This document shows positions 50,327 through 53,290 of a stretch of 64,000 nt of DNA, in pieces; the stretch's first letter is position 1, and every line of letters starts with the position of its first letter. The stretch spans positions 1 through 64,000 of the forward strand of contig PLMU01000006.1 in the NCBI GenBank assembly GCA_003142595.1. The letters run 5' to 3'. The position numbers and the translations under genes are program-made. This DNA comes from Phycisphaerales bacterium (GTDB taxonomy: Bacteria > Planctomycetota > Phycisphaerae > Sedimentisphaerales > UBA12454). The notes under the pieces are model-generated. The model was not told the origin of the DNA, searched no databases, and saw only the letters and a list, made by a program, of their open reading frames with translations.

Positions 50327-51898
50327 ATGACTCAAAATCAGATTAAAGTTACATTTCAGCCGCAAGGCAGCACGGTTTATGTCCTGCCGGGCACAAAAAT
50401 CATCGAAGCCGCGGCTATCGCCGGGATAATTATCGATACTCCCTGCGGCGGTGAGGGGACCTGCGGCAAATGTAAAGTTAAAATATTGCAGCCTCAGCAA
50501 AAACAGGGCGACTGTCTGTCCTGTCGGCAGGAGATTTCTGAAGATACGGTTATTGAAGTCCCGCAGGATTCGCTGCTGCTGGGACTGGATAAAATTGTTG
50601 TCGATTCGAATATTGTTCAGAAAATTATTCCCGATAAACGCTGCGAAAAAGTCGGCAAATGTTACGGCGTAGCAGTCGATATCGGCACTACGACCATTGC
50701 CGCGTCGCTTGTTAATCTAAAAGACGGCGTCGAAATCGCTATAACAGGCAATATCAATCCGCAAATTTCATTCGGCGATGATGTTATCAGCAGGATAAAA
50801 CACGCGTCAGCCGGCCCAAAGGCTCTTGCCGAGCTGCAAAAAACGGTTGCCAGGCAGATAAACGCAATGATAGAAAATCTTTGCAGTCAGGGCACAGTTA
50901 ATAAGAATGATATTTATGAAATTACCATTGCGGGCAATACCACAATGGAGCATCTCCTCTGCGGCATAGACCCTTCGCCGCTGGGGCAACTGCCTTTTAA
51001 GCCGTCTTGGCAGGGAGCAAACGCGATAAATGCCTCAGAGCTTAAATTTAACATTAATCAGCACGGCAAGGTTTATGTTTTCCCAATCATCGGCGGCTTT
51101 GTCGGTGGCGATATCACCGCGGGATTGCTCGCCTCGAATATATTAAATCAGCCCCAGCCTGTGCTTTTTGTCGATATCGGCACTAATGGCGAGATTGTGC
51201 TCGCCAATAACGGTAAAATTCTTGCCGCCTCTACCGCGGCAGGTCCTGCTTTTGAAGGCGCTCGGATTTCCTGCGGAACAAGGGCGGCGACAGGTGCGAT
51301 TGAAAAGGTAAAATTCGACGACGATTGTGAGTTTGGTATTATTGGAAATGTCGAACCGACAGGCATCTGTGGCAGCGGACTTATCGATATTACAGCCGAG
51401 CTTCTCAATGCGGGTATTGTTGACACTACCGGCAGAATGATTCAGCCGTCAAATGCTCCGCAAAAAATCGCTCAAAGAGTCGTCATTGACAAAAATAACC
51501 AGCCGGCCTTTGTTATTCATAAAAAATTAAAAATTACTCAAAAGGACATCCGCCAAATCCAGCTTGCCGTCGGCGCAATCAGGGCAGGCATTAGTATAAT
51601 CCTCAAAAAAGCAGGCATAAAAGCCTCCGACCTGAAAAAAGTTCTTATAGCAGGGGGGTTCGGAAGTTTCATCCGAAGAAATCACGCTCAGCGAATAGGC
51701 TTGTTGCCGGCAGATATCAGCCGCGAAAAGATTTCATTTATTGGCAATTCTTCTCTGGCGGGGGCGAAACTCGCATTGCTGTCGATTAGCGCAAGACAAA
51801 AGGCCCAAATCCTTGCTTCGCAAACTCAGCATATAGAATTGTCGATTGATAGCGATTTCCAAAACGAATTCGCTTCAGCGATGATTTTTCCAGCCTAA
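50327..51898 (+). CDS. RACo-like ASKHA domain protein with 2Fe-2S ferredoxin domain
   Basis: Resembles the reductive activators of corrinoid proteins (RACo/DUF4445). Residues 1-85 are a plant-type 2Fe-2S ferredoxin with CGGEGTCGKC near 40-49 and DCLSCRQ near 60. Residues 118-520 are an actin-like ATPase domain: VAVDIGTTTIAASLV near 120, ITIAGNTTMEHLL near 200, FVDIGTNGEIVL near 282, and VLIAGGFGSFIRRNHAQRIG near 440. In known members, ATP use drives reduction of inactive Co(II) cobalamin to Co(I) in methyltransferases. The partner corrinoid protein is not in the window. It overlaps nadD tail to tail by 4 nt. Confidence 0.85.
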   Translation: MTQNQIKVTFQPQGSTVYVLPGTKIIEAAAIAGIIIDTPCGGEGTCGKCKVKILQPQQKQGDCLSCRQEISEDTVIEVPQDSLLLGLDKIVVDSNIVQKIIPDKRCEKVGKCYGVAVDIGTTTIAASLVNLKDGVEIAITGNINPQISFGDDVISRIKHASAGPKALAELQKTVARQINAMIENLCSQGTVNKNDIYEITIAGNTTMEHLLCGIDPSPLGQLPFKPSWQGANAINASELKFNINQHGKVYVFPIIGGFVGGDITAGLLASNILNQPQPVLFVDIGTNGEIVLANNGKILAASTAAGPAFEGARISCGTRAATGAIEKVKFDDDCEFGIIGNVEPTGICGSGLIDITAELLNAGIVDTTGRMIQPSNAPQKIAQRVVIDKNNQPAFVIHKKLKITQKDIRQIQLAVGAIRAGISIILKKAGIKASDLKKVLIAGGFGSFIRRNHAQRIGLLPADISREKISFIGNSSLAGAKLALLSISARQKAQILASQTQHIELSIDSDFQNEFASAMIFPA

Positions 51899-52518
51899 TC
51901 AGTATCTACATATAATCTGCGATTTTTTATGTAATTCAGCACATCGGGATGCAGGTATTTGCTGGCATCGTCCTCATCTGCGAGTTTTCGGCGGATTTCG
52001 GTGCTGCTGATTTCGATAAAAGGCGTTTCAATCATATTTTTCTTCAGTTTTTCGATATATTCCTTATCGAGTTTGCCTGTCAGACTGTTGAAATCCGGTT
52101 TTTCATACCCGCCGCGATTCATTACGCTTATATTGCACTGATCCATTAGGTCAATTATTTGGTGCCATAGCGGCAGGGATTTGACCATATCGGCTCCGAT
52201 TAGCCAGTAGAGTTCGCAATCATCGCCGAATTTCTGTTTAAGCTGATGGATGGTATCGATTGTATAGCTGGGTTCGGCCCTGTTGAGTTCAACCGAGCTT
52301 ATCTGGAAAAGACTATTGCCTTCGATGGCAAGTTGAAGCATTGCTATCCGGTCATTATCCGGTGCAAGTGGCTTTTGGTTTTTATGTGGTGAGCGTCTTG
52401 CGGGGACAAATATGACTTTTTTAGCGCCGATTTTTTTCGCCGCTGCCTGCGCGACATCTATGTGTCCTGTATGCACAGGGTCAAATGTTCCGCCAAACAG
52501 TATAATTTTCTCTGCCAT
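51895..52518 (-). CDS. nadD: Nicotinate-nucleotide adenylyltransferase
   Basis: Transfers AMP from ATP to nicotinate mononucleotide in NAD synthesis. FGGTFDPVHTGHIDVA holds the HxGH active-site motif at residues 16-19; PHKNQKPLAPDNDRIAML, YWLIGADMVKSLPLWH and the ISSTEIRRKL signature near 172 follow. Length 207 is typical. The AT-rich region upstream holds no obvious promoter that I trust for it. Confidence 0.93.
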   Translation of the reverse strand: MAEKIILFGGTFDPVHTGHIDVAQAAAKKIGAKKVIFVPARRSPHKNQKPLAPDNDRIAMLQLAIEGNSLFQISSVELNRAEPSYTIDTIHQLKQKFGDDCELYWLIGADMVKSLPLWHQIIDLMDQCNISVMNRGGYEKPDFNSLTGKLDKEYIEKLKKNMIETPFIEISSTEIRRKLADEDDASKYLHPDVLNYIKNRRLYVDTD

Positions 52519-52920
52519 AACTCTGTTTTATTAAAAATTTAACAAACAAACTGTTGCAAACTTTTATAAATTTTTCAAAATATTTCGTAATAAGTTCTTT
52601 AAATTACAATTCTACCCGGTTTTTTTAAAAATTTCATAAAAAATATCTTGCTAAAAGATAATTTTGCAAATCAGCAATCCTGAATCTGACTCAATGTATT
52701 TTTCTATAACAACATAGAAACTGAAATTAACATTTCAAAGCTGGGAAATCCCTGATTTTCGCAAAATATAAGCGTTTTTCAGTTCGACTGCAACAAAAAC
52801 ATAATTAAGAAAAAACGCAGACAAAACAATTTGCTGCTTATGAATTTTATTCGACGCACGCTAAGTGCGCCAGTTGCATAAGAGCAAGTAATGAGAAATT
52901 GTGAAGAAAAATATAGTTAA
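52519..52920. other. AT-rich intergenic region
   Basis: About 400 bp of strongly AT-rich DNA with no gene that I can support on either strand. It contains a small dyad CGCAC-GCTAA-GTGCG near 52855-52869. It probably carries the nadD promoter on the minus side and upstream elements for the microprotein unit on the plus side. Confidence 0.5.
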
Positions 52921-52950
52921 TTGACGATAAACTTGTTAAATAGATATACT
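52921..52950 (+). promoter_or_regulatory. Promoter of the lysine-microprotein unit
   Basis: TTGACG (52921-52926) and TATACT (52945-52950) are 18 bp apart. A second candidate lies just downstream, a consensus TTGACA at 52966-52971 with the weaker TAAAAG at 52988-52993. From the first, transcription would begin near 52957, giving a leader of about 83 nt. Confidence 0.55.
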
Positions 52951-53039
52951 TATGACAAAAATAGATTGACAGTTATGTGTAATAAGGTAAAAGTGTATTG
53001 TCATTCTAACCTTTTTCTATCGAAAGGAGGTGAATAAGA

Positions 53040-53090
53040 ATGGCAAAGAAAAAAGCGAAAAAGAAAGTAGCAAAAAAGAAAAAGAAATAG
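53040..53090 (+). CDS. 16-residue lysine-rich microprotein
   Basis: ATG to TAG encodes MAKKKAKKKVAKKKKK: twelve lysines, three alanine residues... and one valine after the start Met. The ribosome-binding site AAAGGAGGTG (53023-53032) is a near-perfect match to the 16S anti-Shine-Dalgarno and is the strongest in the window. The unit has its own promoters and a strong terminator at 53196-53236. The composition resembles the lysine/alanine tails of Hc1- and histone H1-like proteins, so binding to DNA, RNA or acidic polymer is likely if it is made. It could also be a translated leader that controls the structured RNA after it. I know no named family for it. Confidence 0.6.
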   Translation: MAKKKAKKKVAKKKKK

Positions 53091-53100
53091 TTCTGTGAAA

Positions 53101-53163
53101 TGGTCATCGGAATTCATCGCACCACGGCAAAATTAGCCGATGACTTACAGGACCGTGGGCCGT
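53101..53163 (+). ncRNA. Candidate structured RNA (H-type pseudoknot) downstream of the microprotein
   Basis: GTCATCGG (53103-53110) pairs with CCGATGAC (53137-53144). Inside that loop CCACGG (53122-53127) can pair with CCGTGG (53153-53158) beyond the stem, which is the topology of a pseudoknot. The same CCACGG recurs in the loop of the terminator (53212-53217), so the two sites compete for one partner. No known RNA family is recognised. Confidence 0.45.
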
Positions 53164-53195
53164 AACTCAAAATTTTGATTTTAGCTCACAAAGTA

Positions 53196-53236
53196 ACGGA
53201 AGATTCTAACGCCACGGCAGAATCTTCCGTTTTTTT
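53196..53236 (+). terminator. Rho-independent terminator of the microprotein unit
   Basis: A perfect 12-bp stem, ACGGAAGATTCT (53196-53207) with AGAATCTTCCGT (53219-53230), an 11-nt loop containing CCACGG, and then six or seven T residues. It ends a transcript of about 280 nt. Confidence 0.9.
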
Positions 53237-53262
53237 GTGTAATTATCGTTTCATACCGTGTG

Positions 53263-53290
53263 TTGACGCAGGAAGAATTGCTGATATAAT
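53263..53290 (+). promoter_or_regulatory. Sigma70-like promoter for the coiled-coil protein
   Basis: TTGACG (53263-53268) and TATAAT (53285-53290) with a 16-bp spacer; transcription would start near 53297, 30 nt before the ATG. Confidence 0.7.

Follow-up and report, generated by a model that had tools for sequence, protein, structure and literature searches.

A lysine-rich microprotein gene conserved across the Sedimentisphaerales carries a sigma-28-type promoter element

Introduction

Can a frame of only 16 codons be a gene, and if so, what controls it and what might its product do? This question is raised by the intergenic region next to nadD in a stretch of 64,000 nucleotides (the window; positions 1 to 64,000 of contig PLMU01000006.1) from the 2.28-Mb genome of a Phycisphaerales bacterium (GCA_003142595.1). 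The original prediction, made from the letters of this DNA alone, placed here a self-contained transcription unit for a 16-residue polylysine microprotein. We compared the locus with 148 related genomes, up to the rank of order, and asked which sigma factor could read its promoter and which known proteins its product resembles.

Results

A 16-codon transcription unit next to nadD

The predicted parts of the unit, namely the 16-codon frame, the Shine-Dalgarno sequence and the perfect 12-bp terminator, were all found, at slightly corrected coordinates (Table 1). The unit lies in the intergenic region between nadD on one side and a coiled-coil gene (ATG at about 53327) on the other, the latter having a strong promoter candidate of its own (53263-53290, 11/12). 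Its product contains 11 lysines among 16 residues and has a mass of 1.87 kDa. The unit is present in a single copy in the window's genome, as judged by a paralogue search and by a search for the pattern of Shine-Dalgarno sequence plus frame, which occurs once, with no occurrence of the reversed pattern used as a control.

Table 1. Features of the nadD-linked transcription unit in the window
Feature	Position	Strand	Remarks and evidence
nadD (PF01467)	51895..52518	-	divergent neighbour kept with the unit; Pfam 2.5e-28
Sigma-28-type promoter element TGAAG-N16-GACGATAA	52902..52930	+	TNAAG -35, GWCGATAA -10; conservation
Proximal sigma-70-like promoter TTGACA-N16-TAAAAG	52966..52993	+	consensus match only; found again in most orthologues of family f1 (TTGACA-N16/17-TAAAAR)
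Shine-Dalgarno AAAGGAGGTGA, 11 nt, 6 nt 5' of ATG	53023..53033	+	sequence; motif also in orthologues
CDS, 16-aa polylysine microprotein MAKKKAKKKVAKKKKK	53040..53090	+	ATG 53040, 16 codons + TAG; frame-specific synonymous bias
Structured 3' UTR	53091..53195	+	hairpins TTCTGT..ACAGGA, GTCATCGG..CCGATGAC, GTGGGC..GCTCAC; covariation
Intrinsic terminator	53196..53236	+	perfect 12-bp stem 53196-53207/53219-53230, 11-nt loop AACGCCACGGC, T7

The segment ACCTTTTTC-TATC-GAAAGGAGGT (53009-53033) is able to fold over the Shine-Dalgarno sequence, and a comparable TTTTGG..CCAAAAGGAGG is present in family f7; these potential folds hint at translational control.

The gene is conserved throughout the order and under coding constraint

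The Shine-Dalgarno and frame pattern was found in 71 of the 148 relatives' genomes, with zero hits for the reversed control, and DNA-level matches to the unit were found in 108 of them; these orthologue counts are lower bounds, because the search pattern misses variant Shine-Dalgarno sequences. The locus is conserved throughout the order Sedimentisphaerales (Planctomycetota, Phycisphaerae), and most orthologues are divergent from an adjoining nadD; in 51 loci (37 of them non-redundant) a nadD homologue is placed and oriented as in the window. Since the genes downstream vary between families while the divergent nadD stays, the unit stands alone.

Comparison of 13 family f1 loci revealed 469 synonymous and only 24 non-synonymous codon differences in the predicted frame, as compared to 86:226 and 54:219 (synonymous:non-synonymous) in the other two frames; for each frame the codons were aligned with the help of their translation, so that no frame had an advantage over another. 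Loss of the ATG, the ribosome-binding site or the lysine frame in relatives, which had been proposed earlier as a test of the prediction, was not seen. The orthologous peptides are of the type MAKKKA(A)KKKVAKKK, with AKKK(V/A/T) repeats, and their lengths change through KKKA or KKKV units gained or lost in frame. The 16-residue product of the window is therefore one state of a length that is not fixed, and lies near the short end of a range of 12-109 aa (cases of 9 and 17 residues run off contig ends).

A chance frame within an A-rich stretch might be suspected from the low complexity and the mere 16 codons, but this is refuted by order-wide conservation together with the Shine-Dalgarno sequence, frame, promoter element, terminator and nadD synteny, and we give it practically no weight. 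The 16-codon unit is a real, conserved gene, with signals well beyond what a random frame would carry, as originally proposed. Pfam and NCBIfam models matched against three longer homologues yielded no family at E<=1, a test limited by low complexity, and in the literature searched neither the peptide sequence nor a polylysine family of planctomycetes turned up, in agreement with the earlier statement that no family is known for it. The analysis thus brings to light a gene family that extends over the whole order and lies under the size at which gene finders usually stop.

A bipartite promoter element with two sigma-28 cores

Distinct upstream sequences of the unit were chosen on the motif GWCGATAA alone, at -60 to -160, and a TNAAG block then emerged at a fixed distance from it, with T and G present in 100% and both As in 98% of these upstreams. 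The combined element, TNAAG-N16-GWCGATAA, was found at one mismatch or less in 37/37 non-redundant nadD-linked units (exactly in 34), as was a looser form, TNAAG-N16-GNCGATAA; shuffled upstream sequences carried the former at a rate of 0.0002. The published sigma-28 consensus is TNAAG-N14-GCCGATA, and the hctB promoter of Chlamydia pneumoniae reads TNAAG-N15-GCC (PMC3333780). In the window, the -35 box (TGAAG, 52902-52906) agrees with TNAAG, and the -10 box (52923-52930) keeps the CGATA core, with A/T as its second base where sigma-28 has C. By sequence the element matches the sigma-28 consensus except for two extra spacer bases, the spacer being N16 rather than N14 in all matching units as well as before FlgM genes.

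Of the two promoter candidates proposed earlier, the proximal one (TTGACA) recurs in most members of the family. The sigma-70 reading of the distal one (TTGACG..TATACT, 52921-52950) was dropped, because the conserved bases at this place form TNAAG-N16-GWCGATAA; its supposed -35 box at 52921 overlaps the GWCGATAA -10 box and belongs to the bipartite element. Since the proximal promoter recurs, the unit likely has two promoters, and since this sigma-70-like promoter sits downstream of the conserved element, expression may not depend on an alternative sigma factor alone.

In search of a larger regulon, we found seven exact sites of the looser form in the window's genome. Among these, the clearest other intergenic GWCGATAA site, TTAAG-N16-GTCGATAA on the minus strand (G000:C1:148463-148491), lies 89 nt before a histidine-kinase-like frame and is a possible second target.

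A FliA/WhiG-type sigma factor in genomes with no detectable flagellin

FliA/WhiG (sigma-28) regulons comprise flagellar genes, and WhiG acts in Streptomyces sporulation. The window's genome encodes a sigma factor of this subfamily (G000:C6:120893-121555; TIGR02479, 261 bits against a cut-off of 189.6), and 135 of the 148 relatives have one above the cut-off. It lies in the order MerR - small ORF - MinD-like - sigma - dapF-like (the MinD and dapF names were assigned by eye), with no flagellar genes nearby, and the neighbourhood is the same in G003. Flagellin (PF00669) gave no match in the window's genome (98.5% complete), in G003 or in G010, all of which keep the unit, and the window's genome likewise yielded no FlgM match. 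In the flagellated G006 a second sigma paralogue, 30% identical to that of the window's genome, lies beside flhA and fliM/N genes.

In three genomes that are 98-99% complete (G014, G019 and G023), flagellin, FlgM and any match approaching a FliA/WhiG sigma are missing, and the unit has no counterpart at the DNA level; the promoter box is also absent from G019 and G023, and G014 has one box match. As all three share one family, this may reflect a single event. In some other genomes, such as G042 and G053, the sigma factor is present and the unit was not detected.

The same type of element, TNAAG-N16-GWCGATA[ATC], precedes 19 of 27 FlgM-family loci tested, where FlgM was assigned by Pfam PF04316 with several members near the cut-off. 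Among 30 flagellin loci, five (L209, L210, L217, L231 and L233) have TNAAG-N14-GTCGATAA and none has the N16 form. Two sigma-28-type spacings therefore occur in one order, N16 at FlgM-like genes and the polylysine unit and N14 at some flagellins (loci L207-L266), which suggests that the WhiG-like paralogue may read the N16 class and the flagellar FliA the N14 class. A FlgM-like gene is present and flagellin undetected in G034, G037, G045, G075 and G077, consistent with a non-flagellar sigma-28 circuit. The unit thus shares with known FliA/WhiG regulons the TNAAG and CGATA boxes, a sigma factor of the FliA_WhiG subfamily and FlgM-like anti-sigma genes in the clade, but differs from them in its polylysine target, in the undetected flagellin of the window's genome and in the N16 spacer.

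It is conceivable, though we consider it unlikely, that the element is instead a two-part site for an activator, or a promoter used by a different alternative sigma factor (e.g. ECF), in which case the product may be the same. The N16 spacer would fit such an explanation, as would the coexistence of flagellins with N14 and flgM with N16 in the same order. There are also other candidates: PF04545 retrieved ten proteins in the window's genome, and once the WhiG-like one and a response regulator are set aside, the other eight have the look of sigma-70-family factors, several of them ECF-like. However, both cores match sigma-28 (TNAAG and CGATA), the rigid spacing is sigma-like, the FlgM-like anti-sigma-28 genes are preceded by the same element, and G019 and G023 are without both sigma and unit.

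Structure and conservation of the RNA

The RNA spanning 52956-53238 folds better than all 200 shuffled sequences (z = -4.4), and among 12 family f1 sequences the 3' UTR and terminator show nine pairs changed on both sides, as compared to 2.7 in shuffles (0/500). The terminator stem GGAAGRTYCT is kept across the order, and the loop CCACGGC is often kept. The stem and the loop (CGCCACGGC), at 53196-53230 in the window, are more conserved than a terminator seemingly needs. Upstream CCGTGG or GCCGT segments could pair with the terminator loop; such a kissing pair could form in some sequences, and covariation was not seen by eye.

The fold, the covariation in family f1 and the order-wide conservation of terminator stem and loop would all be expected if the unit served chiefly to make a regulatory RNA, with a small frame inside it, that acts through its 3' hairpins and the CCACGGC loop. 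Against this stand the strong frame-specific coding constraint and the persistence of the frame beyond family f1, where the 3' UTR has a different length and sequence; moreover, Rfam gave no match at the gathering threshold in the whole window, with weak sub-threshold hits only. We therefore regard RNA as the main product as distinctly improbable, while a dual function of peptide and RNA is possible. The layout, with hairpins and a terminator behind a short frame rich in lysine codons, also recalls an attenuator, in which a leader peptide senses lysyl-tRNA or slow polylysine translation and controls the downstream gene. This is very unlikely, given that the downstream gene varies between families and in the window is served by a strong promoter candidate of its own, and that the products reach 109 aa.

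Resemblance to Hc2 and other H1-like proteins

The likeness to chlamydial Hc1-type proteins noted in the original prediction holds in its general character, but among known proteins Hc2 (HctB), not Hc1, comes closest. Hc2 is a lysine-rich repeat protein that varies in length by repeat number and binds DNA and RNA, with an affinity for RNA reported to be higher than that of Hc1 (PMC2848022). In C. trachomatis, sigma-28 ChIP-seq detected binding only at hctB and tsp (PMC12282069), and recent knock-downs had modest effects on condensation and impaired development in the next cycle (PMC13317200). The unit resembles Hc2 in its lysine-rich repeats with Ala/Val/Thr/Pro and in its length variation by in-frame repeat change, here of AKKK(V/A/T) units, and resembles C. 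pneumoniae hctB in having a sigma-28-type promoter with a longer spacer than the consensus (N16 and N15, respectively). The two differ in size and architecture, Hc2 having 165-237 aa with pentamers arranged in 36-aa elements and the unit 12-109 aa (16 in the window) with a repeat of 4-5 residues (AKKK/AKKKV), as well as in host, an intracellular pathogen in one case and planctomycetes in the other. As size and repeat architecture differ and no curated family model matches, we do not claim membership in the Hc2 family; repeats as simple as these give no proof of homology.

Histone H1 C-terminal tails, protamines and polylysine are disordered lysine-rich polycations, and the microprotein, a lysine repeat expected to be disordered, almost certainly is so too. 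It differs from them in that it is bacterial, has no globular domain and can be as short as 12-16 residues. We know of no sigma-28 link for proteins of the Bordetella BpH1 type. BpH1 and other H1-tail-like bacterial proteins share lysine-rich pentamers and size variation with the unit (PMC2848022), but are much longer and are reported to be expressed in exponential phase. Planctomycete genomes had yielded no homologues of eukaryote-type histones as of a nucleoid study (PMC3440768).

Proposed function

The best reading of these results, to which we assign a probability of roughly 0.6, is that the gene encodes a WhiG/sigma-28-controlled polycation, resembling a bare H1 or Hc2 tail, whose task is to pack nucleic acid when the cell is in a special state. 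A FliA/WhiG-class sigma, most likely the WhiG-like G000:C6:120893-121555, would bring RNA polymerase to TNAAG-N16-GWCGATAA; the resulting short monocistronic mRNA (about 300 nt) would be translated from its near-perfect Shine-Dalgarno sequence and end at the strong terminator. We infer that the peptide, with its charge of +11, neutralises and packs DNA and/or RNA, which would contribute to nucleoid condensation or quieter gene expression in that state, as Hc2 does in Chlamydia. Relatives that have a FlgM-like anti-sigma, itself behind this type of promoter, would use it to adjust the response. Counting against this reading are the spacer, two bases over the sigma-28 consensus, and the lack of a detected FlgM in the window's own genome; in addition, a peptide of 16 residues, if no more than ordinarily abundant, may not have the length that stable compaction requires.

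Very small basic ribosomal proteins are comparable to the microprotein in size and composition. The target of the peptide might thus be the ribosome or RNA instead of DNA, as with tiny basic ribosomal or hibernation proteins that bind rRNA in a resting state. The higher RNA affinity reported for Hc2 than for Hc1 (PMC2848022) would be in line with this, and so would 12-aa look-alikes in Rokubacteria that adjoin an apparent rpmB (by eye). Nevertheless, a defined ribosomal site would not be expected to accept low-complexity repeats that drift in length between 12 and 109 residues, and the units of the order adjoin nadD rather than ribosomal genes, so that we consider a ribosomal role rather improbable.

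Under the preferred reading, that of a sigma-28-controlled packing peptide, the gene family gains a testable regulator, and planctomycetes are linked to the chlamydial sigma-28/Hc2 circuit. How small a chromatin protein can be and still function, and how old the control of nucleoid packing by sigma-28 is, would then become directly testable outside Chlamydia. More tentatively, and with considerable doubt, the WhiG-type sigma, accompanied by a FlgM-like anti-sigma in many members, may be an order-wide non-flagellar switch, with a naked-tail "histone" microprotein as its most constant target. If so, then taken together with sigma-28 and HctB in Chlamydia, sigma-28 control of an H1-like nucleoid protein would be an old PVC trait, and chromatin proteins could have as few as 12-16 residues.

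Look-alikes beyond the order

Frames of the form MAKKKA(T/A)KKK behind a Shine-Dalgarno sequence were also found in Rokubacteria, Omnitrophota, Patescibacteria and others, and several of them are closely followed by a terminator. The sigma-28 element is absent from these look-alikes (2-5 mismatches), and their composition is too simple for them to be called homologous. Nine Rokubacteria loci (L033-L035, L038, L060, L067, L071, L076 and L089), likewise lacking the element, have frames of 11-12 aa reading MAKKKATKKKKK (or AAKKKKK) behind the same 11-nt Shine-Dalgarno sequence as in the window. These frames often directly follow another frame rich in lysine and precede the apparent rpmB, which lies on the opposite strand.
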